Source: a virus. Taken from it: 59,321 nucleotides of DNA. Each line of letters begins with the position of its first letter. The first letter of the stretch is position 1. A program made the translations under genes and the position numbers. The stretch lies in the IMG/VR virus record IMGVR_UViG_3300037882_001894, positions 1 through 59,321 of that record. One strand, 5' to 3'. Below, in pieces: positions 11,894 to 54,851 of the stretch. The notes below the pieces were generated by a model, which made no database searches, was not told where the DNA came from, and saw only the letters and a program-made list of their open reading frames with translations.

Positions 11894-11898
11894 TTTTT

Positions 11899-11908
11899 GT
11901 GCTATAAT
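11899..11908 (+). promoter_or_regulatory. Extended -10 promoter of HNH copy 1
   Basis: TATAAT at 11903-11908 preceded by TGC, in the GTGCTATAAT context shared with other HNH copies. The ATG at 11933 lies 25 bases downstream. Confidence 0.7.
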
Positions 11909-11932
11909 AAAAACCTATTAATTTGTAACTAC

Positions 11933-12634
11933 ATGTTCCATTGTAACGACAGTACCAATACATATTCCTTTGATCTACCTAACCACAATATTGATAAAAA
12001 TAGCAAGAAAAAACTAACACACAATCAATTATTCGTAGATAATAAACTACACGTATTAAACGTCATCACTGGTGAACTATATACCAATACCATTGATCTC
12101 TCTGCTGTACCACTACTAAAACAATATAATTTTGGTGTAGATAATAATGGTAGATTTGAAACAAGATCAAATGACAAAACTACATTTATACATGAACTAA
12201 TATGCAATCTCAAAACTAATAAGAATTGGGTGATTAATCATATAGATGGTGATCCCACAAACAACCAAAGATCAAATCTAGAATTAGTAACACAATGGTT
12301 CAACATTGCATTAATGAAAACTACTAATTCTTTGCCATTTGGTATAAAACATCATAATAATGGTAGTAGTTTTGTAACAGCAATTAATTTACCAACAATA
12401 AATCAAAAGATAACTTTTTGTTCGCTATTAACAGATTATCTCCAAAATATCCATTATCAGTTTGGGACTAAATCTGGTTTGGTGTCTCCACAAAGATATT
12501 TGAAAGAGACACCAAATTGGTTGCCAGACAACACTATAATCTTTACAGAAGCACATCAAGAAAAGCTAGATATGCTGATAGCAGAACATCTAGAGAATCA
12601 AGCAAAGTGGGATAAACCAGAATCAATATATTAG
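11933..12634 (+). CDS. Free-standing HNH homing endonuclease, copy 1
   Basis: 233 residues. It starts MFHCNDSTNTYSFDLPNHN, almost identical to the MIHYNDSTNTYSFDLPNHN start of its relatives, so ATG 11933 is used rather than codons inside the promoter. The nuclease core is NWVINHIDGDPTNNQRSNL (HNH_3 type). A C-terminal half (YLQNIHYQFGTKSG onward) probably recognises DNA. It sits between gp61 and dexA with its own promoter. A conserved outward promoter begins 2 bases after its stop. One of seven related copies in the window. Confidence 0.85.
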   Translation: MFHCNDSTNTYSFDLPNHNIDKNSKKKLTHNQLFVDNKLHVLNVITGELYTNTIDLSAVPLLKQYNFGVDNNGRFETRSNDKTTFIHELICNLKTNKNWVINHIDGDPTNNQRSNLELVTQWFNIALMKTTNSLPFGIKHHNNGSSFVTAINLPTINQKITFCSLLTDYLQNIHYQFGTKSGLVSPQRYLKETPNWLPDNTIIFTEAHQEKLDMLIAEHLENQAKWDKPESIY

Positions 12635-13350: not shown

Positions 13351-15210
13351 ATGTTAGTACAAAAACGGGACGGATCTAAAGAACCATTAAATATCGATAA
13401 AATCCATCGGATGCTTGAATTAGCTTGTGATGGACTAGATGTATCCATGTCTTTAATTGAGACAACCAGCAAACTACAATTTTATGATGGTGTTACTACA
13501 AAATACATTCAAAATGTATTAATCGGTGCCACGAATAAACTTATTGATCTCGATACACCGGATTATCAATATGTGGCAGCAAGATTGTTGTTATTCGGAT
13601 TGTATAAAGATTTATACCCAAATTGGCAGACATATGGGTTGGGTTCCTTGTATCAACATCTCACTAGATTTAAAGACAAGTACGATGATGTTCTATATAA
13701 TGCTTACACCAAAGAAGAATGGGATGTCTTAGATACAGTAATAAATCATTACAAAGACTACAAATTTACTTATGTATCGTTACAGCAATTATTAGATAAA
13801 TATCTCATTCAAGATCGTGCTACTGGATTTATTTACGAAACTCCACAGTATGCTTACATGAATATTGCTGCTATGGTGTTTAGTAGTTATCCACCAGACA
13901 TCAGATTAGATAAAGTTATTGATTACTATCATGCTATTTCCAATCATGAGATTAATCTACCAACTCCGATTATGGCTGGTGTGAGAACTAAGCAAAAATC
14001 CTACGCTTCATGCGCCTTGTTGGATTTACAAGATAATATACAAAGTATTGGTGCTACTAATGCTGCTATTGGGATGCTTACTGCTGCCTCATCTGGTATT
14101 GGTTTAAATGTTGGCAGAATGCGTAGTATTGGTTCTAGTATTAGAAATGGTACTGTAATCCATCCTGGTATTGTACCATTCCTGAAAATATTTGAAGCTA
14201 CTGGTAAAGCCTTCAGCCAAGCAAATCGTGGTGGGAAAGTTACAGTATATGTTCCAATTTGGAATTACGAAATTGAGGACATTATCAGATTAAAAAATAA
14301 TCGGGGTACAGAAGAAAGTTCGGTAAGACATTTAGATTATTGTATTCAATTGTCTGGGATATTCTATAAACGGTTTTTGAATAACGAACCTATTACGTTA
14401 TTCTCCACTGATGATGTACCTGGATTATATGAGGCATTTGGTACAGATAAATTTGATGAATTGTATATGCATTATGAGAAACAAGACATCCGTAAGAAGA
14501 GTGTCTTAATGCAAAAATTATTCTTGGATTTGGTGGAAGAACGGTCTGGTACAGCAAGAATCTATATCATGAATATAGATCACGCTAATACGCACTCACC
14601 ATATGAAGAAACCGTTTGTATGTCAAATCTTTGTGTTGCACCAGAGACATTATTGCTCACTGATAAAGGATACATCCCTATTGGTGAACTACAGGATAAA
14701 CCAGTTACCATTTGGAATGGTGAAGAGTGGTCTAATACAATTGTACGAAAAACTGGTGTTAATCAAAAACTGATAAAAATTAGCTTTAAAGATCAAAACG
14801 CAAATGTTCACATAATTGAATGCACACCATACCACAAATTTAAAGTTCAATTAGAAAGATTTGTAGTAGAAGTACGTGCGGCATATTTGAAACGGGGTGA
14901 TAAAATACAAAATTATTGTCATCCAGAATTTGAACTTAAAGTCAAGAATCATCAAGACTGGTTAGTATATGATGTAGAGGATAATAATAGATATGATAAT
15001 ACATATTGTTTGACAGAACCAAAAAGAAATACGATGGTGTTGAATGGTGTACTCGCTGGTAACTGTGTCGAAATTATCCAACCTTCTCGACCTCTGAATG
15101 ATATAAATGATACTGGTGTGTATCAATACAAGGTAGCAGTCAAAAAAGACCGAATACATGAATTTGTGTCATTAAAAAACAATAATAAATTTTTGGAGTT
15201 CAAACCTTAA
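13351..15210 (+). CDS. nrdA: Ribonucleotide reductase large subunit NrdA, N-terminal part, with mini-intein
   Basis: Class Ia NrdA reduces ribonucleotides to deoxyribonucleotides. This 619-residue precursor holds the first two thirds of NrdA plus a 144-residue intein (428-571). It carries the first redox Cys in SYASCALLD (C221, E. coli C225). The intein lies immediately before the Cys of the N-L-C-V-E motif, the equivalent of catalytic thiyl Cys439, so the +1 residue of splicing is the radical Cys. After PLNDINDTG the sequence departs from the usual NrdA pattern for about 30 residues and stops at 15208. The rest, from the equivalent of Cys462 on, is coded by the next gene in another frame. 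Confidence 0.9.
   Translation: MLVQKRDGSKEPLNIDKIHRMLELACDGLDVSMSLIETTSKLQFYDGVTTKYIQNVLIGATNKLIDLDTPDYQYVAARLLLFGLYKDLYPNWQTYGLGSLYQHLTRFKDKYDDVLYNAYTKEEWDVLDTVINHYKDYKFTYVSLQQLLDKYLIQDRATGFIYETPQYAYMNIAAMVFSSYPPDIRLDKVIDYYHAISNHEINLPTPIMAGVRTKQKSYASCALLDLQDNIQSIGATNAAIGMLTAASSGIGLNVGRMRSIGSSIRNGTVIHPGIVPFLKIFEATGKAFSQANRGGKVTVYVPIWNYEIEDIIRLKNNRGTEESSVRHLDYCIQLSGIFYKRFLNNEPITLFSTDDVPGLYEAFGTDKFDELYMHYEKQDIRKKSVLMQKLFLDLVEERSGTARIYIMNIDHANTHSPYEETVCMSNLCVAPETLLLTDKGYIPIGELQDKPVTIWNGEEWSNTIVRKTGVNQKLIKISFKDQNANVHIIECTPYHKFKVQLERFVVEVRAAYLKRGDKIQNYCHPEFELKVKNHQDWLVYDVEDNNRYDNTYCLTEPKRNTMVLNGVLAGNCVEIIQPSRPLNDINDTGVYQYKVAVKKDRIHEFVSLKNNNKFLEFKP
14632..15063 (+). other. Mini-intein in NrdA
   Basis: 144 residues, from C428 (CVAPETLLLTDKGYIPI) to AGN before extein Cys. 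Block B His is present (CTPYHKF), and block F/G ends VLNGVLAGN. The penultimate residue is Gly instead of the usual His. There is no room for an endonuclease domain. Boundaries follow from restoring SNL-CVEI. Confidence 0.87.
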
Positions 15211-16477: not shown

Positions 16478-18547
16478 ATGTCAGTAATAAACACAAATTC
16501 AAATATAGATTTTACAAAAGAACCGCAATTTTTTGGCGAAACTTTGGGAATTCAGCGATATGACCAGTATAAATATCCAGCATTACATCAGTTATACAAA
16601 ACACAAAAAAATTATTATTGGTCGCCTTCTGAAATATCCCTACAGAAAGACAGAGGCGATTATTCAACATTAACTGCTAATGAAAAGTTTATCTATACTT
16701 CTAATTTAAAATATCAAATTTTATTAGATAGTATTCAATCTCGATCTACAAGTTTAGCATTTTTGCCATTTGTATCTTTACCAGAACTGGAAAAGAACAT
16801 CATCGTTTGGAGTTTCTTTGAAACTATCCATAGTGAATCCTATACTCATATTATTGAAAATGTATATAGTGAACCATCCACTGTGTTTGATCACATATTA
16901 AACGATGTGGAAATTATTAAACGTTCCAATAGTGTTACAAAATATTACGATGAATTTATTAAACTTTCCTCAGCTTATTATAACAATGATATTGTTAAAG
17001 AATTAGTAAATGATAATAATCTCACTGCCAGATCTCTATTATTAGATTTGAAGCGGTCATTGTACCTATCAATGGTGAATGTTAATATTTTAGAAGGTAT
17101 TAGATTTTATACTTCTTTTGCTTGTTCATTCGCATTTGCTGAAAATAGTAAAATGATCGGTTCAGCAGACATTATATCATTGATTGCTAGAGATGAAGCT
17201 TGTTACACACCAGCACACGAATGTTTAACACAATCTGGATGGAAATATATTAAAAATGTAACATTAGATGATAAAGTATTGCAATTTAATAGTAACAATA
17301 CTGTGGAATTTGTAAACCCCACAGACATAATAACTAAAAAATACCAAGATGAACTATATCATTTTTATGATGATCATGATACTTTTGAGCAGATAGTCAC
17401 TAAAGATCATCGAATGATTTGGCGAGATCTTACTAATGGTAGGTTGCGAGAATCCACCGCCGAAAATACAGCTTTTACAACTAGTTATAAAGCTGTAATT
17501 TTGAGTGGGTTGTTATTGGAAGGGGAAATCGAGATTTCCCCAATTGAAATATTAAACATATTTTTTGAATATTGTGGTAGAGTAATGGCGGTATCTGGTG
17601 ATAATCTTGATCTACAAATGACATTAAAAAATGTTGATTGGTGGCGGATACTTGGTGCAGCTTTGACTAAATTAGGGATCTCCTATGATTATAAAGTTAA
17701 CTATAAAACTAGTGTATACACAGTAACATTAACTGTACCAACTATTACACTAAAGAAATATTTTGGTTGGGTAGATATTAAAGGCAAATCCACTATATGG
17801 GCACAGAATGTAATAAAACTTTGTCGCATACTAAGCAACAATATTAATTATACTACACATACCGAACCAAAGTTTAAATTTTATGTTAATAATGCAGCAT
17901 CATTATTAAAAATTCAGGAATTGTTTGCTATTTCTTATTGGAAGATACGTGCTTCAAAACACTACAAGATCAATCATGGACATACTATCACTGTAGATAC
18001 TAGCAGAAATCATGTCAAAACAAATAATATCCAAATTAAAAAAATACAATATTCTGGATTAGTGCATTGTTTGACAGTACCATCTGGTGCATTTTTAGTC
18101 CGACATAATGGTAAAGTATCAGTTGGTGGTAATTGTCATCGTAGACTGAGCGAAACTGTTATAAAAAATTGGCAGAATGGCGACGATCCTGATTTTACTG
18201 ATATCATTAAAGAAGAAGAATTGACCGTCTATGATATGTTTAGAACTGCTGTAGATGAAGAAATTGCTTGGGCGAATCATTTATTCAAGGACGGTAGTGT
18301 ATTAGGATTGAATGCAGAAATTTTGACTCAATATATCAAATTTACTGCTAATCAAAGATTAAAATCTCTTAATCTTAAACCATTGTTTCCTGATATTAGT
18401 AAGAAAAATCCAATCCCCTGGATCGATAATTATCTAAAATCTTCAAATATATCTGTTGCCCCAATGGAGACTGAGATCATATCGTATATGATTGGTAACG
18501 TTGTTCGTGACGTAGCGGAAAATCAATTTGCTAATTTTGAATTATGA
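16478..18547 (+). CDS. nrdB: Ribonucleotide reductase small subunit NrdB with intein
   Basis: The diiron-tyrosyl radical subunit of class Ia RNR, 689 residues including a 311-residue intein (242-552). Ligands match E. coli numbering: D84 (LLDSIQ), E115 and H118, and radical Tyr Y122 in FETIHSESYTH. The EGIRFY Glu and the RDEAxH pair complete the site. The intein separates the Glu and His of that last motif: RDEA stops at 241 and CHRRL resumes at 553, so an unspliced protein cannot build the diiron centre. The stop overlaps the ATG of HNH copy 2 (ATGA). A preceding terminator implies a separate promoter, not clearly seen. Confidence 0.92.
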   Translation: MSVINTNSNIDFTKEPQFFGETLGIQRYDQYKYPALHQLYKTQKNYYWSPSEISLQKDRGDYSTLTANEKFIYTSNLKYQILLDSIQSRSTSLAFLPFVSLPELEKNIIVWSFFETIHSESYTHIIENVYSEPSTVFDHILNDVEIIKRSNSVTKYYDEFIKLSSAYYNNDIVKELVNDNNLTARSLLLDLKRSLYLSMVNVNILEGIRFYTSFACSFAFAENSKMIGSADIISLIARDEACYTPAHECLTQSGWKYIKNVTLDDKVLQFNSNNTVEFVNPTDIITKKYQDELYHFYDDHDTFEQIVTKDHRMIWRDLTNGRLRESTAENTAFTTSYKAVILSGLLLEGEIEISPIEILNIFFEYCGRVMAVSGDNLDLQMTLKNVDWWRILGAALTKLGISYDYKVNYKTSVYTVTLTVPTITLKKYFGWVDIKGKSTIWAQNVIKLCRILSNNINYTTHTEPKFKFYVNNAASLLKIQELFAISYWKIRASKHYKINHGHTITVDTSRNHVKTNNIQIKKIQYSGLVHCLTVPSGAFLVRHNGKVSVGGNCHRRLSETVIKNWQNGDDPDFTDIIKEEELTVYDMFRTAVDEEIAWANHLFKDGSVLGLNAEILTQYIKFTANQRLKSLNLKPLFPDISKKNPIPWIDNYLKSSNISVAPMETEIISYMIGNVVRDVAENQFANFEL
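17201..18133 (+). other. Intein in NrdB
   Basis: 311 residues from C242 (CYTPAHECLTQSGWKYI) to VGGN before extein Cys. Block B is TKDHRMIW. The penultimate residue is Gly, as in the NrdA intein. The middle is long enough for an endonuclease, but only weak LAGLIDADG-like helices are visible (LSGLLLEGE), so it may be decayed. Confidence 0.85.
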
Positions 18548-19239
18548 TCCATTATAACGACAGCACCAATCTACATTCTTTCGATCTCCCCAATCACAAT
18601 GTTACTAAATCCACTAATACTATAAAAACATATAATCAATTATTCGTAGATAATAAACTACACGTACTAAACACCATCACTGGTCATTTCTATACCAGCA
18701 CTATCGATATTTCTGCTGTACCACTACTAAAACAATATAATTTTGGTGTAGATAGTGCTGGTAGATTTAAAACATGGATAAATAGAAAAACTACATACAT
18801 ATACGAACTAATATGCAATATTAAAACTAATAAGAATTGGGTGATCAATCATATAGATGGTGATTCTAACAACAACCAAAGAGCAAATCTAGAATTAGTA
18901 ACAAATTGGTTCAATACTGCATTGAAGAAAACTACTAATTCTTTACCATTAGGTATGACCCATCATGGTACTAGTTTTAAAACACAAATTTGTCTACCAA
19001 CTACCACACAAAAGATAACTTTTTGTTCGCTATCAACAGATTATCTCCAAAATATCCATTATCAATTTGGTACTAAATCTGGATTAGTATCTCCAGCAAG
19101 ATATTTACAATCCACACCAAATTGTTTGCCTGACAACAGCATAATATTTAAACCAGCACATCAAGAAAAGTTAGATGTGCTGGTGAGAGAGCATCTAGAG
19201 AATCAAGCAAAATGGAATAAACCTACTCCAATATATTGA
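18544..19239 (+). CDS. HNH homing endonuclease, copy 2
   Basis: 231 residues with the family N terminus (MIHYNDSTNLHSFDLPNHN) and the NWVINHIDGDSNNNQRANL nuclease core. The ATG overlaps the nrdB stop by four bases and, unlike most copies, no private -10 box is visible upstream, so it is probably translated from the nrdB message. A TTGACT/TATAAT promoter begins one base after its stop. Located next to an intein-containing host gene, as expected for an element that has homed into nucleotide-metabolism genes. Confidence 0.85.
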   Translation: MIHYNDSTNLHSFDLPNHNVTKSTNTIKTYNQLFVDNKLHVLNTITGHFYTSTIDISAVPLLKQYNFGVDSAGRFKTWINRKTTYIYELICNIKTNKNWVINHIDGDSNNNQRANLELVTNWFNTALKKTTNSLPLGMTHHGTSFKTQICLPTTTQKITFCSLSTDYLQNIHYQFGTKSGLVSPARYLQSTPNCLPDNSIIFKPAHQEKLDVLVREHLENQAKWNKPTPIY

Positions 19240-27152: not shown

Positions 27153-27809
27153 ATGACCATAGAATTGAATTTTTGGGAAAACAAAGAATATAATCGAGTA
27201 GTGGTAGATGGTGTGCGACATTACGACATCGAAGGAAACTACTATCCATCTGTCACTAGTGTAACATCAGCTTATGGTAAGGCTGGGATTGATAAATGGA
27301 GAAAAAAAGTTGGTGAAGAGGAAGCCAATAGGATCTGCAATACTGCGTCCGCTAATGGCACGTATATACACCATTTAGCAGAGCAATATATCTTGGGTAA
27401 TACTATAGATCATAGTAGATCTACATATTTACAAAAAATGATATTTGGTAATCTCAAAACCAATATCAATAAAATATCTGAGGTAAATTTATTAGAGAAT
27501 ACTTTGTTCTCCCATAAGCTTAAATTAGCTGGTACAGTCGATTGTGTTGGTGTCTATGATGGTAAATTGTCTATCATAGATTTCAAGACAGCAAAGGCAG
27601 AAAAGAAAGAGTCTTGGGTAGAATCATATATAGTACAGACAACTATATATTCGATGATGGTCTACGAAATGTATGGAATAAAGATCAGACAGATTGTGTT
27701 GCTGTTCGCTTGTAGTGATCTAACAACACCGATTATTGTAAAAACTATAGATAAAGACTTATTAGAATTAGTAAAAAAATACATAGAATTTTATCGCAAT
27801 GCTAAATAA
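27153..27809 (+). CDS. PD-(D/E)XK exonuclease (RecB-like)
   Basis: 218 residues. Motifs of the RecB/Cas4-type nuclease fold in order: GTYIHHLAEQYI (His motif), KLAGTVDCVG (Asp), LSIIDFKTAK (D-x-K) and YIVQTTIYSMM (QxxxY). This gene is widespread in cyanomyoviruses beside gp33 and gp59, the same neighbours as here. It probably processes DNA ends in recombination or repair. The last 11 bases overlap the gp33 gene. Confidence 0.8.
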   Translation: MTIELNFWENKEYNRVVVDGVRHYDIEGNYYPSVTSVTSAYGKAGIDKWRKKVGEEEANRICNTASANGTYIHHLAEQYILGNTIDHSRSTYLQKMIFGNLKTNINKISEVNLLENTLFSHKLKLAGTVDCVGVYDGKLSIIDFKTAKAEKKESWVESYIVQTTIYSMMVYEMYGIKIRQIVLLFACSDLTTPIIVKTIDKDLLELVKKYIEFYRNAK

Positions 27810-28053
27810 AAAGCAACAATCATTTTTAGACGAACACTTATTAACCTCGGAAAAGTTCAATGATCTGATTGAACAACACCGAATAAACTTCGATACTTAT
27901 CTAGACACTATATCAGATTATGTCCAAAACAATAATATGGAGATAGCCGTAGTGAAAAAGTTATTAAATCCCCAAATCTTATCAAAATTAAGAGCAGAAT
28001 GTGAATTTGTGAATTTGATCAGTAAACAATCAAACACCAATCCTTTATTTTAG
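27799..28053 (+). CDS. 33: Late transcription coactivator gp33
   Basis: 84 residues. The body (LIEQHRINFDTYLDTISDYV, QILSKLRAECEFVNLI) aligns with T4 gp33 (MVEEFGMSYLEATTAFLEE, GIIEKIQSEAIDENLL), the RNA-polymerase flap-binding domain. The C terminus NTNPLF parallels T4 NTLDFLL, the hydrophobic tip that binds the gp45 clamp. gp33 links the clamp to host RNA polymerase at late promoters, which are abundant in this window. Shorter than T4 gp33 (112) by its N-terminal part. Overlaps the exonuclease by 11 bases and is followed by gp59 after 1 base. Confidence 0.75.
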   Translation: MLNKKQQSFLDEHLLTSEKFNDLIEQHRINFDTYLDTISDYVQNNNMEIAVVKKLLNPQILSKLRAECEFVNLISKQSNTNPLF

Positions 28054-28054
28054 T

Positions 28055-28642
28055 ATGAGTAGTTTAGGTTATAATGCATATACTACATATGTAGCAGTAA
28101 AAATGCACTTTACCAGTAAAAAGTACAATTATTTCAGACACAAGGGTAGTAAAATTTCTGAAGGTGCGTTAAGAAAAAATAATGATCGATACTGGTTTAT
28201 GAAACTACAGGATAAATATTCGGAAGATGATTTGTTATCTTTTTTCCTAGCACAATACACTGCTAACCATATGCATAATTATTGGGTTGGTGATTCTTTT
28301 GGTGATAAATGTCAAGAATTGTACCATGATTATCAGAAAAGAATGGGTCAATTCACGCGATTTGTAAATCAAGATATTGCTGATCTATACAATACATATA
28401 ATCACGATGAAATATATAAGGTATCTTCTGGATATCCAAAGATCATAACATCATATTTGGCTGGTAAAATCTCACTAGAAACGCTGATTGTATTGGACGA
28501 ATTAAATGGCTGGGTGGGAGAATCTGAGGCATTAGTTGGTTTGGTGGGGGAACCATTGTTAAATAAGATAGAAAAATACCGACCATTCCTTAATTACAAT
28601 ATAGTACCAATTCGGAAAAAATATAATCAAATATTCACTTGA
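28055..28642 (+). CDS. 59: Helicase loader gp59
   Basis: 195 residues; T4 gp59 has 217. Matching segments: VAVKMHFTSKKYNYFRHKG (T4 YLMIKQHMNGKYDVIKYN), NNDRYWFMKLQDKYSEDDLLSFFLA, NHMHNYWVGD and IITSYLAGKISLETLIVLDEL. gp59 binds fork DNA and gp32 and loads gp41 onto the lagging strand. All three partners (41, 61, 32) are in the window. One base after gp33. Confidence 0.85.
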   Translation: MSSLGYNAYTTYVAVKMHFTSKKYNYFRHKGSKISEGALRKNNDRYWFMKLQDKYSEDDLLSFFLAQYTANHMHNYWVGDSFGDKCQELYHDYQKRMGQFTRFVNQDIADLYNTYNHDEIYKVSSGYPKIITSYLAGKISLETLIVLDELNGWVGESEALVGLVGEPLLNKIEKYRPFLNYNIVPIRKKYNQIFT

Positions 28643-28647
28643 AAGTA

Positions 28648-28676
28648 TTGACTTATACATAATTACATGGTATTCT
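28648..28676 (+). promoter_or_regulatory. Sigma70-like promoter
   Basis: TTGACT (28648-28653), 17-base spacer, TATTCT (28671-28676), upstream of the small membrane protein gene. Confidence 0.7.
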
Positions 28677-28702
28677 AATTAAGAACATTAAATACAGAGT
28701 AA

Positions 28703-28900
28703 ATGATCTTTACGTTTTGGCTGGTGTCTGGGGTGTTTTTAAATCTAGTTATGATCAACAGCATAACAGAAGAAGAAGATTTTGATACATTGGTAATTTT
28801 GTTATCGTTTGTTGCAAATTTTCTTTTTTCCCCTATTTTGATTGTAGCCAACTCTGCAAAAATGCTCAATGTCTTGCTTGAGGAAAACGAAATAAATTGA
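28703..28900 (+). CDS. Small two-helix membrane protein
   Basis: 65 residues with two hydrophobic helices (IFTFWLVSGVFLNLVMI and LVILLSFVANFLFSPILIVA) joined by an acidic loop (TEEEDFD) and an acidic end. It has its own promoter and lies between gp59 and gp32; its end overlaps the -35 of the gp32 promoter. No family recognised; a T4 Imm-like or other membrane-modifying role is only a possibility. Confidence 0.55.
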   Translation: MIFTFWLVSGVFLNLVMINSITEEEDFDTLVILLSFVANFLFSPILIVANSAKMLNVLLEENEIN

Positions 28901-28925
28901 CCTTTTCTGTATACAATGGTATAAT
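28897..28925 (+). promoter_or_regulatory. Sigma70-like promoter of gp32
   Basis: TTGACC (28897-28902), 17-base spacer, TATAAT (28920-28925). It gives a leader of about 60 bases containing a pseudoknot. Confidence 0.85.
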
Positions 28926-28947
28926 ATTATAAGGTAAGAAAACAAAA

Positions 28948-28972
28948 ACATCTACACGATGTAAAGTGTGTA
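28948..28972 (+). promoter_or_regulatory. H-type pseudoknot in gp32 mRNA leader
   Basis: Stem 1: ACATC (28948-28952) with GATGT (28958-28962). The whole loop TACAC (28953-28957) can pair with GTGTA (28968-28972) to form stem 2. A 20-base A-rich stretch without structure leads to the ATG at 28993. T4 gene 32 uses the same arrangement for translational self-repression: the pseudoknot nucleates gp32 binding that spreads to the start. Confidence 0.7.
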
Positions 28973-28992
28973 ATTAAACAACAACAAAACGC

Positions 28993-29907
28993 ATGATAGA
29001 TCTTAAAGCTTTCAAACAACGACAACGTGCTACATCTTTGACAGAAATTACTGAATCCTATCAATACAAAGGATCAAACTACGTCGATTCCCGTTACTGG
29101 AAACTACCAACTCCTGACAAAAAAGATGGTGCGTATAGTGGAGCAATCATTCGGTTTTTGCCTTCACACAACCCCGAAAAACCTTTTATTACAACCTATT
29201 CCTACAGTTTTAATGGAATCAATGGACAGTACATCGAAGAGTCGTTAGAAACGCTTGGGAAGCCAGATCCAGTTCAACAATACAACTCTAAACTTTGGAG
29301 TACTGGTGATGAGGACAAAAGAGCAGATACTAAAAAACGCAGCCGAAAACTGCATTATATTGGTAATATTTTAGTAGTTAAAGATCCTACTCGTCCTGAT
29401 AATGAGGGTAAAGTATTTTTGTTTAAGTTTGGTGTTAAAATTTACGAAAAGCTGTTGGCAGCTATGCAAGGTGATGAAATGGCGATGGAAGCACCAATCG
29501 ACATTTTTGATCTAGACGAGGGTGCTAATTTTTCCCTCAACATGACGTATAGTGGTAAAACTGGATTTTTTGTGTACGATAAATCCAAATTCTTGCGTTG
29601 CTCCAGTATTGGTGACGAAGATTATCAAGAAATAGTAGTTGGTACTATTTATGATTTGGATGCTTGTGAACCAGTCAAATACAAGACATTTGAGTCATTG
29701 AAAGAGCGATTTGATGCAGTCATGACTAAAGGTACTGTCGCCGCTGATGAATCCCAACCAGACGATGAACTAGAACTACCACAAGAACCCGCAATTCCCG
29801 TTGAGAAAAAAGCAGCTAAAGTTAAAGTCAGCCTACCAAAACCTCCTACTATGGATGATGAATTTGCTGAGTTTGATTCTTTAGTGGATGATGATATTCC
29901 TTTCTAA
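28993..29907 (+). CDS. 32: ssDNA-binding protein gp32
   Basis: 304 residues; T4 gp32 has 301. Signatures: [14 protein letters not shown], the [20 protein letters not shown] and [12 protein letters not shown] segments (T4 [23 protein letters not shown]) and an acidic tail ending [17 protein letters not shown] that would recruit gp59 and other partners. The zinc-finger Cys residues of T4 gp32 are missing: no Cys occurs before about residue 205. This agrees with the PDPV-type cyanophage variant. No Shine-Dalgarno precedes the ATG; expression is probably controlled through the leader pseudoknot. Confidence 0.92.
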   Translation: [304 protein letters not shown]

Positions 29908-29911
29908 AATC

Positions 29912-30514
29912 TTATATTTCTTCAAATTTATTACCACCAGCATTTAGTATGTTGGTCTGGTATTTTATCAACTTAATAAAATCATCTTCAAATCTTGCTA
30001 CAACCAATGGGTTCAACAGCAAGATTTTTCTTTTGTTTTCATTTTTTTCGATTATGTCTTCTCTCGCTGTCACTGGTACTCTTGCACTATTACCACTAAT
30101 GGTTATATTATCTATTTTTTTACTAAAATATTGACCTACTATCAAACCATATGGCACCACTATATATCCATTACTATTCTTCAATTCTATTGTTCTATAA
30201 AATAATATATCATTTTTGTCTAGCCGATCATATACTATCTGCTCGATCTCACTATTGGATAATGCCCACTCATCGTAATGGATATTATTGACCAATAATA
30301 TTAACCAATAATATTTTATATCTCCGTAATAATTGTTTGCTATCTGTTCTGGGCGTTCTCCATCTTTTATATAATACTCTTCGTACAAAGTATTATTTGT
30401 CTGGATATCTCCATTCAATTTTAATCTTCTGAACATATCTACTACATCTACAGCACCACCATCTACTGGATCGGTTATTGTTATTTTTGGGTATGATTTA
30501 AAATATGATGACAT
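29912..30514 (-). CDS. 53: Baseplate wedge protein gp53
   Basis: 200 residues. The segment EEYYIKDGERPEQIANNYYG followed by KYYWLILLVNNIHYDEWALS is the gp53 LysM-like signature, in which a repurposed peptidoglycan-binding fold clamps adjacent baseplate wedges. It is the last gene of a three-gene minus-strand operon (4, 48, 53) and ends 4 bases from the convergent gp32 stop; no hairpin terminator is visible between them. Confidence 0.82.
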   Translation of the reverse strand: MSSYFKSYPKITITDPVDGGAVDVVDMFRRLKLNGDIQTNNTLYEEYYIKDGERPEQIANNYYGDIKYYWLILLVNNIHYDEWALSNSEIEQIVYDRLDKNDILFYRTIELKNSNGYIVVPYGLIVGQYFSKKIDNITISGNSARVPVTAREDIIEKNENKRKILLLNPLVVARFEDDFIKLIKYQTNILNAGGNKFEEI

Positions 30515-31993: not shown

Positions 31994-32016
31994 AGATATA
32001 CAATTATTTGATGATC

Positions 32017-32712
32017 ATGATCCATTATAACGACAGCACTAATACATATTCTTTCGATCTACCTAACCACAATACCAACAAAAATCATAAATTAACATAT
32101 AATCAATTGTTTGTAGACAATAAACTACACGTATTAAACATCATCACTGGCAATCTCTATACCACTATTATTGATATCTCTTCAATACCACTACTGAAAC
32201 AATATAATTTTAATGTAGATATTGGTGGTAGATTTCGTACAGGATTAAATGACAAAACTATAAAAATACATGAAATAATATACGATATCAAAACTAATAA
32301 CAACTGGGTGATTAATCATATAGATGGTGATCCCACAAACAACCAAAGAGCAAATCTAGAATTGGTTACAAATTGGTTCAATACTGCACTACGCAAAACT
32401 ACTAATTCCTTACCATTAGGTGTAAAATATGCTAATAATGGTAATAGTTTTAGGACAGTAATTAAGCTACCAACTAGTAATCAAGCTACAACTTTTGGTT
32501 CACTTTCAATAGATTATCTCCAAAATATGCATTATCAGTTTGGCACCAAATCCAAATTAGTATCTCCGCAAAGATATTTGGAATCCACACCAAATTGGTT
32601 GCCTGATAACAGCATAATCTTCACACCAGAACACCAGCAAAAATTAGATATGCTGGTGAAAAAGCATCTGGAGAACCAAGCAAAGTGGGACAAACCAGAA
32701 TCAATATACTAA
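32017..32712 (+). CDS. HNH homing endonuclease, copy 3
   Basis: 231 residues, ATG at 32017 chosen to match the MIHYNDSTNTYSFDLPNHN family start. Nuclease core NWVINHIDGDPTNNQRANL. It lies between the minus-strand gp4 operon and another minus-strand late gene, so it is transcribed against its neighbours. It has a private promoter and is followed by a 78-base repeat shared with the GIY-YIG gene at 52803 rather than by the outward promoter seen after copies 1, 2, 5 and 6. Confidence 0.85.
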   Translation: MIHYNDSTNTYSFDLPNHNTNKNHKLTYNQLFVDNKLHVLNIITGNLYTTIIDISSIPLLKQYNFNVDIGGRFRTGLNDKTIKIHEIIYDIKTNNNWVINHIDGDPTNNQRANLELVTNWFNTALRKTTNSLPLGVKYANNGNSFRTVIKLPTSNQATTFGSLSIDYLQNMHYQFGTKSKLVSPQRYLESTPNWLPDNSIIFTPEHQQKLDMLVKKHLENQAKWDKPESIY

Positions 32713-42924: not shown

Positions 42925-43620
42925 ATGATCCATTATAACGACAGCACTAATACATATTCCTTCTATCTTCCTAACCACAATGTTAGTAAACCTCATGCTA
43001 GAAAATTAACATACAATCAATTATTTGTAGATAATAAACTACACGTACTAAACATCATCACTGGTGATTTCTACACCATCACTACTGAACTCTCTGACAT
43101 ACCACTACTAAAACAATATAATTTTGGTGTAGATAATGATGGTAGATTTAAAACAACAACAAATGGAAAAACTACATACATACACGAACTAATATATGGT
43201 ATCAAAACTAATACAAATTGGGTAATCAATCATATAGATGGCGATCCTAGTAACAACCAAAGATCAAATCTAGAATTAGTAACAAATTGGTTCAATTCTG
43301 CATTACGCAAAACTACTAATTCTTTGCCATTAGGTATACAACATCATGGTACTAGTTTTAGAACACAAATTAGATTACCAACTAGTAATCAAGCTATAAC
43401 TTTTGGTTCGCTTTCAATAGATTATCTTCAAAATCTGCATTATCAATTCGGTACTAAATCCAAATTAGTATCTCCAGCAAGATATCTACAATCTATGCCA
43501 AATTGGTTGCCAGATAACAGCATAATCTTTACACCAAAGCATCAAGAAAAGCTAGATATGCTGATAACAGAGCATATAGAGAATCAAGGAAAATGGGATA
43601 AACCAGGATCAATATACTAA
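42925..43620 (+). CDS. HNH homing endonuclease, copy 4
   Basis: 231 residues starting MIHYNDSTNTYSFYLPNHN, with core NWVINHIDGDPSNNQRSNL. Inserted between the two hub genes (gp27-like and gp5). Its stop codon lies within the late promoter that serves gp5 (ACTAAATA), so the insertion kept the neighbouring late unit functional. Downstream there is no sigma70-type outward promoter, unlike copies 1, 2, 5 and 6. The C-terminal part (AITFGSLSIDYLQN, KSKLVSP) groups with copy 3. Confidence 0.85.
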   Translation: MIHYNDSTNTYSFYLPNHNVSKPHARKLTYNQLFVDNKLHVLNIITGDFYTITTELSDIPLLKQYNFGVDNDGRFKTTTNGKTTYIHELIYGIKTNTNWVINHIDGDPSNNQRSNLELVTNWFNSALRKTTNSLPLGIQHHGTSFRTQIRLPTSNQAITFGSLSIDYLQNLHYQFGTKSKLVSPARYLQSMPNWLPDNSIIFTPKHQEKLDMLITEHIENQGKWDKPGSIY

Positions 43621-43650: not shown

Positions 43651-46077
43651 ATGATCAATCCTAATTTTTCCACCACCAACAACCTAAACGAAAATAACTA
43701 TTATTTTGGAGTAATTGAATCTGTAAATGATCCGTTGGGTTTGCATCGGGTAAAGTGTAGAATCATTGGTGTCCACAACGACAATAGAAAGTTATTAACT
43801 ACTAATGATTTGCCTTGGTCATTGGTGGCCAACCCAACTGATGGCACTGGTAAGCATACTTTGAAACCAGGGAATTTTGTAGTGTGCGTATTTGTCGATC
43901 AGGATCTACAACAGCCTGTAGTTCTTTATACTCTATTCAGCAAGATAAAAACCAACAATATTAAATTTAATAGTATCGACGATGTTAGATCTCCTGGTAC
44001 AGTATTCTTAACCAACAACACCAGCAAAATTCCAGACCAAATCATATATGATGGTAAATTAGCAAATGAGATAGTGGCAAAATCCCAATTAATTGCTGAT
44101 ATTGGTAATCCATATGGGCGGAATACCAACACACCGACAGCAAATGGTAAATCTGGTGGAGTAGGTATATTTGAGGATATTCAGCGTGAGATTGTATCGT
44201 TAGCGAATATCTTTAAGTATGTAGAATTGTATGATACTGATGATATTACATTGTCTGAGGATATTGATGAAGGTGTTGGGTTTATACCATTATCCAGAGT
44301 AGAGAGTATACCTAGATCTGGTATTATTAAAATTGATAATGAATTTATCACATATAATGGGATAGCTGACACAGGATTGTCTGGACAAATCATGCGTGGA
44401 TCTCCAGATCGCGGTGAAATAGTACCATCATTTAATGCTACACATACTAAGGGAACATCAGTACAATGGATCTATCCAATCGTTAAGAATGATAATGCAC
44501 CGTTATTTTATAGTAAACTGACTGGACAAGCAATTAATTTTGGCAAAGAGATCAAAAAAAAAATGTCAGTCATTTCTGGATACATTACCTGGATTACCTC
44601 ACAAATATCAGCGCAAATCACAAAATTATTAAGTGAACTAATATCCAACATCACACTAGTATTAAAATCACCAATAGCAATAACTGGTAAACTGATAGTA
44701 GATGCTTTATTGCTAATTTTGTCTCAAGTATTGTGTGCGTTTAATAAATCTACTGTTGACAGCTTAGTAGATGTGATTGAGAATTATATTACAGAGCAAT
44801 TGATGGGTGTGGTGAAGATGTTTTATGCTGCTGGGGGTGCTGTAACAGATTTTATAACTAATTGTAGTAATAAAATATTTGATGCTATCTTACAATTTTC
44901 CAGCATTATACAATCGGTTGGTACCATTATCAATGCTGTGACCGCTACAAAATTTCCTACAGCATCCTCTTTCAATATATCTGATGGTGATGGTGGGTTG
45001 TCAATGGAATCTATTACATCAGCAGCACCGATTGTTGGTAATTTATTAAATTTATTAGGTTTGGGTTGTCGGACAGATGTTGGTGAGAATAAGATCACTT
45101 ATACTGATAACAATGGTACTACTTGTACTACTAATGGTTACTTCCCTGATGCTATATTATGTGCGCCAAATCCAGATATAATTGGTGAATTGAACAATCT
45201 GTATCGACCGTTACCAGCATTTATTACATCTTATGATTTCGGTGGTGGATTGAAGATAGAGCAAGATAACACGCCTGGTACAGAGCGTACACTAATCCAG
45301 TCACCAGCAGGTACATATACTGAAGTTTTTAATGATGGCACCAGCAAGACTGTTATCACGAAAGATAATTATACACTCATTCTAAATGATAATTTTGTAG
45401 AAATTAAAGGTGCTGCTTATTTCAAGGTAGATGGTGATTTTGGGTTAAAAGTGTCAGGTAACATGGATATTGAAGTAGGCAAAGAATTGAGAATGAATAT
45501 TGGCGGAGCATCAAAGATCACTTACGGAGGTTCGCATAATACTAATTATAATAATGATGCTATTATTAATGCCACTAATAAATTGTCGATCACTGGTGCC
45601 CAAATAGGTTTATCGGGTAGTGGATCAGTAGATATCGCTGGTGGCGTATTTACTACTGTAGTAAATGAAGCAAATATCACTTCACTTGGATCGTTATCAT
45701 TGTTGTCGTTATACAGCAATCATGTTAGTACGTTATCACACAAAGAGATCCACAGCGGATCTGTTGACAAATTAGTATTAGGTACTGAGAAAACTATTAA
45801 TTTGTCCACACATACAGCAGATTATATTGGTGCTAGAACAGAGAATCATAGTAGTATACTGACCACCAATGTCTCTGGTATACACAACGTAACTAATAAC
45901 AGCGTATACAATGTTTCTTCAAAGTTAAAAGTAGAAAATGTATCAGAATTATTACAATTGACTACAAAACTCACTGTGAATAACAGTCAAACTACGACAA
46001 ATAATGTTAGTGGTAGTTATTTTACTTATGCTGGTGGGATCAATGTTCGTTCTTCTTCTGCAAACTTTGACAGTTGA
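43651..46077 (+). CDS. 5: Baseplate central spike gp5-like
   Basis: 808 residues from ATG 43651; in-frame ATGs at 43624 and 43636 are less likely because the late promoter at 43616-43623 would start RNA near 43630. The N-terminal OB fold is clear (YFGVIESVNDPLGLHRVKCR, WSLVANPTDGTGKHTLKPGN, DLQQPVVLYTLF). The middle holds an acidic insertion, hydrophobic helices (about 300-420), then an alternating short-strand region (GDFGLKVSGNMDIEVGKELR onward) forming the trimeric beta-helix needle. No T4-type lysozyme domain (E-D-T catalytic set) is seen, so wall digestion probably depends on the tape-measure-like proteins. Confidence 0.8.
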   Translation: MINPNFSTTNNLNENNYYFGVIESVNDPLGLHRVKCRIIGVHNDNRKLLTTNDLPWSLVANPTDGTGKHTLKPGNFVVCVFVDQDLQQPVVLYTLFSKIKTNNIKFNSIDDVRSPGTVFLTNNTSKIPDQIIYDGKLANEIVAKSQLIADIGNPYGRNTNTPTANGKSGGVGIFEDIQREIVSLANIFKYVELYDTDDITLSEDIDEGVGFIPLSRVESIPRSGIIKIDNEFITYNGIADTGLSGQIMRGSPDRGEIVPSFNATHTKGTSVQWIYPIVKNDNAPLFYSKLTGQAINFGKEIKKKMSVISGYITWITSQISAQITKLLSELISNITLVLKSPIAITGKLIVDALLLILSQVLCAFNKSTVDSLVDVIENYITEQLMGVVKMFYAAGGAVTDFITNCSNKIFDAILQFSSIIQSVGTIINAVTATKFPTASSFNISDGDGGLSMESITSAAPIVGNLLNLLGLGCRTDVGENKITYTDNNGTTCTTNGYFPDAILCAPNPDIIGELNNLYRPLPAFITSYDFGGGLKIEQDNTPGTERTLIQSPAGTYTEVFNDGTSKTVITKDNYTLILNDNFVEIKGAAYFKVDGDFGLKVSGNMDIEVGKELRMNIGGASKITYGGSHNTNYNNDAIINATNKLSITGAQIGLSGSGSVDIAGGVFTTVVNEANITSLGSLSLLSLYSNHVSTLSHKEIHSGSVDKLVLGTEKTINLSTHTADYIGARTENHSSILTTNVSGIHNVTNNSVYNVSSKLKVENVSELLQLTTKLTVNNSQTTTNNVSGSYFTYAGGINVRSSSANFDS

Positions 46078-46086
46078 TGATATGTG

Positions 46087-46095
46087 TGTTATACT
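46087..46095 (+). promoter_or_regulatory. Extended -10 promoter of HNH copy 5
   Basis: TGT then TATACT (46090-46095); a second TATAAT at 46101-46106. ATG at 46119. Confidence 0.55.
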
Positions 46096-46118
46096 GGATA
46101 TATAATATTTGTTGCATT

Positions 46119-46808
46119 ATGATCCACTATAACGACAGCACTAATACATATTTCTTCGATCTACCTAATCATAATGTAGACAACAGTAGAAAATTAACAT
46201 ACAATCAGTTATTTGTAGACAATAAACTACACGTACTAAACACCATCACTGGTGATCTTTATACCAACACTATTGATCTCTCTGCTGTATCACTACTAAA
46301 ACAATATAATTTTGGTGTAGATGATAATGGTAGATTTCGTACCCAGCTAAATAGAAAAACTATATTCATATATGAACTGGTGTGTAATACCAAAACCAAC
46401 AGGAATTGGGTAATTAATCATATAGATGGCGATCCTAGTAACAACCAAAGATCAAATCTAGAATTAGTAACACATTGGTTCAATACGGTATTACAAAAAA
46501 CTACCAACTCTCTGCCATTGGGTATAAAACATAATGATAATAGTTTTCTAACACAAATTTGTTTACCTACTATCGACCAAAAGATAAATTTTTGCTCACT
46601 TTCAATAGATTATTTACAAAACATCCATTATCAGTTTGGTATCAAATCCAAATTAGTATCTTCAGCAAGATATTTGGAAGCTACACCAAATTGGTTGCCA
46701 GACAACAGCATAATATTTAAACCAGATCATCAAGAAAAGCTAGATATGCTGATCTCAGAGCATCTAACAAATCAAGCAAAGTGGAATAAACCTGAACCAA
46801 TATATTGA
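46119..46808 (+). CDS. HNH homing endonuclease, copy 5
   Basis: 229 residues; ATG 46119 matches the family start (MIHYNDSTNTYFFDLPNHN). Core NWVINHIDGDPSNNQRSNL. Lies directly after gp5, so gp5 is flanked on both sides by copies of this family. Followed without a gap by the conserved outward promoter. C-terminal segments mix features of different copies (KINFCSLSIDYLQN with KSKLVSSARYLEA), which suggests exchange among copies. Confidence 0.85.
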   Translation: MIHYNDSTNTYFFDLPNHNVDNSRKLTYNQLFVDNKLHVLNTITGDLYTNTIDLSAVSLLKQYNFGVDDNGRFRTQLNRKTIFIYELVCNTKTNRNWVINHIDGDPSNNQRSNLELVTHWFNTVLQKTTNSLPLGIKHNDNSFLTQICLPTIDQKINFCSLSIDYLQNIHYQFGIKSKLVSSARYLEATPNWLPDNSIIFKPDHQEKLDMLISEHLTNQAKWNKPEPIY

Positions 46809-53570: not shown

Positions 53571-53942
53571 ATGGATTTCGCTCATACTAATATGGATTCA
53601 AAAGTTTGTCATCATTGCACAAATGGATTAAGATTAGAAAATAATTGTAATAGATCTGAATATTATTCTGCTTATTATAAAAACATCCAGCCACAATTGA
53701 AATATTACATATTGCCATGTGATCGGTGTTGGCATGGGAAATTTATTAAAGATTTCTACAACTTCCCAGAAACAGAGATTTTAGGTTATAGACAAGATTG
53801 CTATCGAAATATAATGGTTACTACGATAGATGGTAGTGAAATGTCACCAACAGAAATGTTGTACAATTGGATCAAATATAAATCTTTGACAAAACCAAAT
53901 AATCCATCAAAAAAATATGATCCACTACAACGACAGCACTAA
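53571..53942 (+). CDS. Cys-containing protein with 3' end overwritten by HNH copy 6
   Basis: 123 residues, with Cys pairs in KVCHHCTNG and LPCDRCWHG that could bind zinc, and a helical end (MSPTEMLYNWIKYKSLTKPN). The final residues YDPLQRQH are coded by the first bases of the HNH gene in another frame, so the original C terminus has been replaced or the gene was cut by the insertion. An ATG at 53592 is an alternative start. Not recognised otherwise. Confidence 0.5.
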   Translation: MDFAHTNMDSKVCHHCTNGLRLENNCNRSEYYSAYYKNIQPQLKYYILPCDRCWHGKFIKDFYNFPETEILGYRQDCYRNIMVTTIDGSEMSPTEMLYNWIKYKSLTKPNNPSKKYDPLQRQH

Positions 53943-54615
53943 TACATATTCCTTTGATCTTCCTAATCATAATACATATAAAGGTAGTAAACTAACATAC
54001 AATCAATTATTTGTAGACCATAAACTACACATACTAAACACCATCACTGGTGATCTCTATACCAACACTATTGATCTCTCTTCTGCACCACTACTAAAAC
54101 AATATAATTTTGGTGTAGATAATGATGGTAGATTTCAAACAAAAGCAAATGGAAAGATGGTAAAAATATACGAATTGATATATGGTATCAAAACTAATTC
54201 AAATTGGGTCATCAATCATATAGATGGCGATCATACAAACAACCAAAGAGCAAATCTAGAATTAGTAACTTTATGGTTCAACACAGCATTAATGAAAACT
54301 ACTAATTCTTTACCATTAGGTATAAACCATGATAATGGTAATAGTTTTAGAACACAAATTAATTTACCAACTATACAACAAATTATAACTTTTGGTTCAA
54401 AATCAATAGATTATCTCCAAAATCTCCATTATCAGTTCGGCACCAAATCTGGCTTGGTGTCTCCACAAAGATATTTGAAAGAGACACCAAATTGGTTGCC
54501 TGATAACAGCATAATCTTCGCAACAAAACATCAAGAAAAGTTAGATCGATTAATAGTAGAGCATCTAGAGAATCAAGCTAACTGGGATAAACCAGAATCA
54601 ATATTTATTGATTGA
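53917..54615 (+). CDS. HNH homing endonuclease, copy 6
   Basis: 232 residues, family start MIHYNDSTNTYSFDLPNHN and core NWVINHIDGDHTNNQRANL. The ATG lies 26 bases inside the preceding gene and no private promoter is seen, so it is read from the upstream transcript, as for copy 2. The family C-terminal SIY is altered to SIFID by a short extension, and the outward promoter overlaps this end. Confidence 0.85.
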   Translation: MIHYNDSTNTYSFDLPNHNTYKGSKLTYNQLFVDHKLHILNTITGDLYTNTIDLSSAPLLKQYNFGVDNDGRFQTKANGKMVKIYELIYGIKTNSNWVINHIDGDHTNNQRANLELVTLWFNTALMKTTNSLPLGINHDNGNSFRTQINLPTIQQIITFGSKSIDYLQNLHYQFGTKSGLVSPQRYLKETPNWLPDNSIIFATKHQEKLDRLIVEHLENQANWDKPESIFID

Positions 54616-54672: not shown

Positions 54673-54846
54673 ATGTTGGACGGGGTAATAGATTTCGCAT
54701 ATAGCTTTGAACATTGGTTGATCATCATGACTAGGGAAAAAGATCAACATCATATATCGGTTTTCTTTGATTCTTTGTCTTGGTGGTGGTATTATGACAA
54801 TGCAGCACAAAACTTTTCCAATTGTTTCTCTCAAAAATTAGATTAA
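54673..54846 (+). CDS. Small uncharacterised protein
   Basis: 57 residues from ATG 54673, starting MLDGVIDFAYSFEHWLIIMT. Aromatic-rich (SWWWYYDNA). Driven by the outward promoter of HNH copy 6 and followed 5 bases later by the RNA ligase. Not recognised. Confidence 0.5.
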   Translation: MLDGVIDFAYSFEHWLIIMTREKDQHHISVFFDSLSWWWYYDNAAQNFSNCFSQKLD

Positions 54847-54851
54847 AAAAT

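Follow-up and report, generated by a model that had tools for sequence, protein, structure and literature searches.

The gp32 leader of a T4-like phage: a predicted 5'-proximal hairpin, an open ribosome-entry stretch and a marginal pseudoknot potential

The gp32 gene in the T4-like phage sequence analysed here (a virus record of 59,321 bases, hereafter the window) is preceded by a promoter-like site, a small predicted hairpin near the 5' end of the leader and an open, A/C-rich ribosome site. In the reading that we favour, to which we give a probability of about 0.4, these elements make up the leader, gp32 possibly coats the open site, and a pseudoknot is a marginal and unproven extra. An earlier proposal from the letters of the DNA (the sequence-only reading) had been that the leader folds into a T4-like autoregulatory pseudoknot. 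Its assignment of the gene to gp32 is borne out by profile matches and by the order 33-59-32, found with Pfam and PHROGs, which is that of T4; solved structures of the T4 protein (8gme, E=4e-33; 1gpc, E=3e-31) are matched by the product as well. The locus is laid out as follows:

27799–28053, + strand: gp33-like late-transcription coactivator (PF16805, E=1.7e-13; phrog_254)
28055–28642, + strand: gp59 helicase loader, the upstream neighbour as in T4 (PF08993, E=4.5e-9; phrog_269, E=2.5e-35)
28703–28900: orphan open reading frame of 65 amino acids between gp59 and gp32
28897–28925, + strand: sigma-70-type promoter-like site TTGACC-N17-TATAAT with an extended -10 TGG (11 of 12 consensus positions)
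28932–28992, + strand: putative 5' leader of the gp32 mRNA, about 61 nt, delimited by the predicted promoter and the ATG
28973–28992, + strand: G-poor single-stranded ribosome-entry stretch AUUAAACAACAACAAAACGC, with one UUAAA-like element and no Shine-Dalgarno sequence
28993–29907, + strand: gp32 single-stranded DNA-binding protein, 304 amino acids (PF08804, E=1.6e-35; phrog_224, E=4.9e-72; PDB 8gme/1gpc)
29912–30514, strand opposite to gp32: gp53 (Pfam/PHROGs)
29936–29956, + strand: terminator-like hairpin 3' of gp32, a weak candidate (2 found against 0.9 expected in the scanned region)

The promoter-like site in the gap between gp59 and gp32 is the best-scoring one within 27700–30200. Over the whole window, sites of the form TTGAC-N18-TATAAT with one mismatch allowed occur 14 times against 5.4 expected, a count reached in none of 100 shuffles. 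With the usual promoter spacing transcription would start at about 28932, so that gp32 would be driven from its own host-type promoter and would carry a leader of about 61 nt. The stretch before the ATG is open and A/C-rich with a single UUAAA-like element. Both the unstructured A-rich stretch and the ATG without Shine-Dalgarno sequence had been pointed out in the sequence-only reading, and both are there, yet neither is unusual in this genome: the stretch ranks fifth in openness among 42 window leaders, and only about 5 of 42 window genes have a Shine-Dalgarno-like match.

Within this leader the segments ACATC (28948–28952), TACAC (28953–28957), GATGT (28958–28962), GTGTA (28968–28972) and the ATG (28993) had been given with the correct letters and positions. 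The proposal was that the first and third of these form a stem of five pairs, and that the loop between them forms five more with GTGTA to give an H-type pseudoknot. While the segments are indeed complementary, the exact pairing of 5+5 bp without a loop 1 is sterically implausible. In H-type pseudoknots at least one nucleotide must span the deep groove of stem 2, and as none is left to cross it the structure cannot be built in this form. If one pair is opened, a buildable form 4-1-6-0-4 results (ACAU-C-UACACG-AUGU-AAAG-UGUGUA), with a stacking energy of -13.0 kcal/mol and one G-U pair. A second buildable form joins ACAUC/GAUGU through a U to ACAC/GUGU (5-1-4-0-3 or 5-1-4-0-5), with a stacking energy of -13.5. 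The predicted pairings are:

28948–28962, + strand: hairpin or stem 1, ACAUC-UACAC-GAUGU, the likeliest local helix in folds of the leader by itself
28953–28972, + strand: possible stem 2, UACACG (28953–28958) with UGUGUA (28967–28972)
28954–28957 with 28966–28969 or 28968–28971, + strand: alternative stem 2, ACAC with GUGU
28966–28994, + strand: competing weak hairpin at the start codon, GUGUGU (28966–28971) with ACGCAU (28989–28994), present in the minimum-free-energy fold

The probability of the stem-1 hairpin is 0.95 when 28932–28994 is folded and falls to 0.28–0.39 once coding sequence is added, and the folding stability of the whole leader is ordinary (z from -1.2 to +0.5). The hairpin at the start codon, with its 17-nt loop and two G-U pairs, has an energy at 37 °C of -2.5 kcal/mol in isolation and -3.0 kcal/mol in the context of the leader. 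It has a probability of 0.5–0.9 in the predicted fold and is stronger at 20–25 °C. Stem 2 and this hairpin both use GUGUGU and are mutually exclusive, and it is conceivable that they form a switch, in which GUGUGU would pair either with the hairpin loop, leaving the start free in the knot, or with ACGCAU, hiding it, such that the knot would favour translation. Given the weakness of the start-codon hairpin and the absence of comparative support, we consider such a switch improbable.

The wider set of gp32 leaders, 131 non-redundant sequences from IMG/VR contigs and named phages, provides the setting for these elements. Hairpins at -55 to -25 occur at about double the expected frequency (17 versus 7.9), while from -30 to -1, where 48% of the bases are A and 11% G, there is 1 versus 2.8 expected. 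Leaders of gp32 thus repeatedly combine a 5' hairpin with an open ribosome site downstream of it, without a knot. Eight cyanophage-type leaders carry a 5-bp hairpin whose loop has 5 nt (GUGAU-AGGGC-AUCAC or a variant of it), just after the promoter at about -50 to -31 of gp32. Its closing pair is U-A, U-G or C-G and is the only one to vary on both sides, so that the covariation is slight. The window leader resembles these in having a promoter-like site near gp32, a 5-bp/5-nt hairpin 30–50 nt before the ATG and then an open A/C-rich stretch; the cyanophage-type leaders differ in their stem sequence, in the lack of a T4-geometry knot above threshold and, in many of them, in the presence of a Shine-Dalgarno-like GAGG. 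We prefer the reading of promoter, hairpin and open site because 5' hairpins are over-represented among gp32 leaders, because the 30 nt before their start codons are rich in A and poor in hairpins, and because the cyanophage-type hairpin has the same size and place.

In T4 and RB69, gp32 has been proven to repress its own synthesis, binding across a leader rich in A and U (PMC535899, PMC3014915). By analogy, surplus gp32 in the window phage would most likely coat the open stretch downstream of ACAUC-UACAC-GAUGU and in this way limit its own translation. The hairpin would be at most a boundary, a nucleation site or an element protecting the mRNA, and its loop may pair weakly downstream to give a marginal H-type knot, whose membership of the T4 operator family is unproven. 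Two observations count against the combination of hairpin and coating: the open stretch is ordinary for the genome, and the T4-like geometry of the pairing, at 0–1 per 1000 shuffles, exceeds what this reading needs.

To judge how often such a knot arises by chance we used three descriptors, chosen after the structure had been seen: T4-like, within about one unit of T4; loose H-type; and very loose. The scanner works, in that it recovers the knots of T4 (-18.3; 4/1000 shuffles) and RB69 (-20.8; 1/1000). For the window leader the T4-like descriptor is reached in 0–1 of 1000 shuffles; a further run gave 1 of 2000 with the 61-nt leader and 11 of 2000 with the 92-nt one. For 92 nt the loose descriptor is reached in 19–24 and the very loose one in 73 of 1000, so that depending on the descriptor 0.1–7% of shuffled leaders match the knot. 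Among the 42 gene leaders of the window that of gp32 is the best, and no other reaches the T4-like descriptor at its strength. By the measure of the shuffles, a knot of T4 topology, as had been proposed, can form in this leader more easily than chance predicts.

The leading alternative to the preferred reading, although still unlikely in our view, is nevertheless that the complementarity is fortuitous, the hairpin and its extra pairing having no regulatory role and the promoter being the sole control of gp32. Knots as good or better occur 155 times over both strands of the window with the loose descriptor, and clusters of equal strength 19 times with the T4-like one; 2–7% of shuffles satisfy the loose descriptors, and the fold is of ordinary stability. 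On the other hand, the 19 clusters correspond to only about 0.015 expected per 92-nt leader, yet one is found in the very leader where T4 has its knot. A further alternative is a functional operator that arose independently, with gp32 recognising the 4-1-6-0-4 knot through a protein surface unlike that of T4, coating the 20-nt open stretch and blocking the ribosome. In its favour, every element of the knot is within one unit of the T4 topology, the T4-like descriptor is matched by only 0–1 of 1000 shuffles and best by this one of the 42 leaders, and a UUAAA-like element and the open stretch lie downstream. However, its stacking is 5–8 kcal/mol below that of all T4-type knots, ordinary hairpins compete with it, and the zinc ligands are absent from the protein. 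In addition, outside the T4-type group just 2 of about 126 leaders reach the threshold of the survey described below, against about 0.7 expected. We regard an independent operator as also unlikely, and rank it after chance.

In the survey of the 131 leaders a T4-like knot was counted at a threshold of -12 or better. Seven leaders have one, those of T4, RB69, LF82-1, KP17, P545 and the window together with a further one, L065, where 0.73 would be expected from shuffles. The window and L065 are the two outside the T4-type group; the knot of L065 was rejected as a second case of this kind, because the -10-like element of that leader lies downstream of the knot, which the transcript would therefore probably not include. 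The exact geometry 4-5/1/7/0/5 is common to T4, RB69, LF82-1, KP17 and P545. No T4 knot was found in the leaders of JS98, RB49, PG7, PEi20, Ah1, leB, phiKp_9, avDM3 and K566, or in essentially all of the cyanophage-type relatives among the 131; for RB49 the lack of the knot has already been published (PMC535899, PMC3014915). When the five knots of T4 geometry are aligned all cells pair, and 6 of the 12 pairs have changed on both sides, with a total of 11 cells. Neither this cell count nor the covariation score is reached by any of 500 shuffles, and sliding of the partner strand destroys the signal. The five knots thus form a strong positive control and demonstrate what real conservation looks like.

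The knots of the Klebsiella phages P545 (Marfavirus) and KP17 (Jiaodavirus) have exactly the T4 geometry, and when they are compared with T4 and RB69 both stems show compensatory changes. They occupy the same slot in the gp32 leader as the window structure, which differs from them in geometry. A limited literature search found no mention of these Klebsiella knots. Leaders like that of KP17 occur in 129 records of Klebsiella or Raoultella phages, and leaders like that of T4 in 472 records. No Rfam family was matched at its gathering score anywhere in the window; since the known loci of T4, RB69, P545 and KP17 are likewise unmatched, Rfam cannot decide the case of the window.

The window structure shares with the T4/T2/RB69 operator the gp32 gene in its 33-59-32 order, the potential for an H-type knot 5' of an open A-rich ribosome site, a stem 1 of 4 bp, a loop 1 of 1 nt and no loop 2. 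Set against the 4/1/7/0/5 of T4, the 4/1/6/0/4 of the window differs by no more than one unit in any element, but the exact geometry of 4-5 bp/1 nt/7 bp/0/5 nt is absent from both the 61- and the 92-nt window leader. Stem 2 has 6 bp including the G-U pair instead of 7, loop 3 has 4 nt, and loop 1 is a C where T4 has an A. Only 20 nt separate the knot from the ATG, compared with about 29–54 for that operator, and the window structure differs further in its lack of a Shine-Dalgarno sequence and its single UUAAA-like element. The features that are invariant in T4, RB69, KP17 and P545, namely the A of loop 1, the inner C-G pairs of stem 1 and a loop 3 ending in UG, are missing from the window leader.

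The protein is also different. Of the T4 zinc ligands His64, Cys77, Cys87 and Cys90 none is kept in the window gp32, where they are replaced by Tyr, Ser, a gap and Gln, while every knot-bearing gp32 of the survey has the full set of His, Cys, Cys and Cys. To our knowledge, no gp32 without zinc ligands has been demonstrated to control its own synthesis, which counts against the coating reading too. According to a reference title within PMC535899, the zinc domain is essential for translational repression in T4; taken with the absence of the ligands, this means that the window phage lacks one of the features that go with the T4 mechanism. Near the N terminus the window protein has a basic stretch, KQRQRATS, which from its sequence resembles the LAST motif of the cooperativity region. 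Its C terminus (29887–29907) reads FDSLVDDDIPF, an acidic tip of the type found in bacterial SSB proteins; that of E. coli SSB is DFDDDIPF. Among the approximately 180 other gp32 proteins gathered, none has IPF at its end, and the extended motif had no match among viral contigs. Such a tip may allow gp32 to recruit the SSB partners of the host.

That the structure is a true homologue of the T4 operator, inherited from a common ancestor, was the earlier proposal, and it now appears the least probable of the explanations considered. It has in its favour the same gene, topology and placement between promoter and ribosome site, as well as the 9-mer GTAAAGTGT found both in the window leader and in the T4 knot, so that the two are not, as had been stated, devoid of primary-sequence similarity. 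We do not take the 9-mer as a sign of homology, since 29 of 2000 shuffles do as well and its structural register differs: in T4, stem 1 supplies GUA, loop 3 supplies AAGUG and stem 2 a single base, and in the window leader the 9-mer is shifted by one with other roles. Nor is it conserved in the family, being absent from the KP17 and P545 knots. Most sampled lineages are without a knot, which makes common descent with the T4 knot unlikely. The invariant family features, to which the 7-bp stem 2 can be added, are not present, and the zinc domain reported as essential for T4 repression is missing. With the T4 geometry confined to five phages among the 131 leaders and a window gp32 that lacks all four ligands, the view of an ancient conserved T4-like control device is not supported. 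Within the leaders surveyed, the T4 knot instead has the look of a device restricted to certain coliphages and Klebsiella phages.

A 2010 review of post-transcriptional control in T4 called for work on how gp32 controls itself across a range of T4 relatives (PMC3014915). It is doubtful that the zinc-less gp32 of this T4-like lineage, which is distant and probably infects cyanobacteria, came independently by an operator with a knot of T4 geometry, possibly together with a start-codon switch. If a gp32 without zinc ligands did rely on such an operator, the need for the zinc domain reported in T4 could be put to the test, and knot control would be able to evolve without the domain thought essential in T4.

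The lineage itself is a deeply separate one, because the best identity of its gp32 is only about 40% to any phage in the annotated collection and about 41% to any fetched locus. No close relatives were found by single-sequence gp32 scans of viral and genome contigs, by two alignment-based viral scans, by four DNA-pattern scans, by a UvsX scan or by tblastn of four proteins, in collections that may omit records very near the window. The NrdB protein with its intein has a near full-length match only in the Pseudanabaena phage PA-SR01, and a tail-tube-cap-like neighbour protein has its most frequent matches in Synechococcus phages; our guess is that the host is a cyanobacterium.

Upstream of gp32 in six of the surveyed leaders there is a palindrome ACAGGT-TCNG-ACCTGT that looks like a repressor or activator site. 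Inverted repeats of this kind, present in several cyanophage-type leaders, were rejected as leader structures as they lie inside the spacer between -35 and -10. Elsewhere in the window four genes seem to bear inteins, to judge from interrupted homology and Hint/LAGLIDADG-like inserts, and a family of six or more HNH-endonuclease-like paralogues (MIHYNDSTNTYSFDLPNHN...) is dispersed among the phage genes:

2371–4755: replicative helicase, apparently intein-bearing
13351–15210: NrdA, apparently intein-bearing
16478–18547: NrdB, apparently intein-bearing
54822–56954: RNA-ligase-like gene, apparently intein-bearing
11897–12634, 18544–19239, 32008–32712, 42925–43620, 46074–46808 and 53917–54615: HNH-endonuclease-like paralogues

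Four of the HNH-like paralogues are directly followed by promoter-like sites that resemble one another (TTGACTTTAATNTCTGTGTATGNTATAAT), as though a promoter for the next gene travelled with every cassette.
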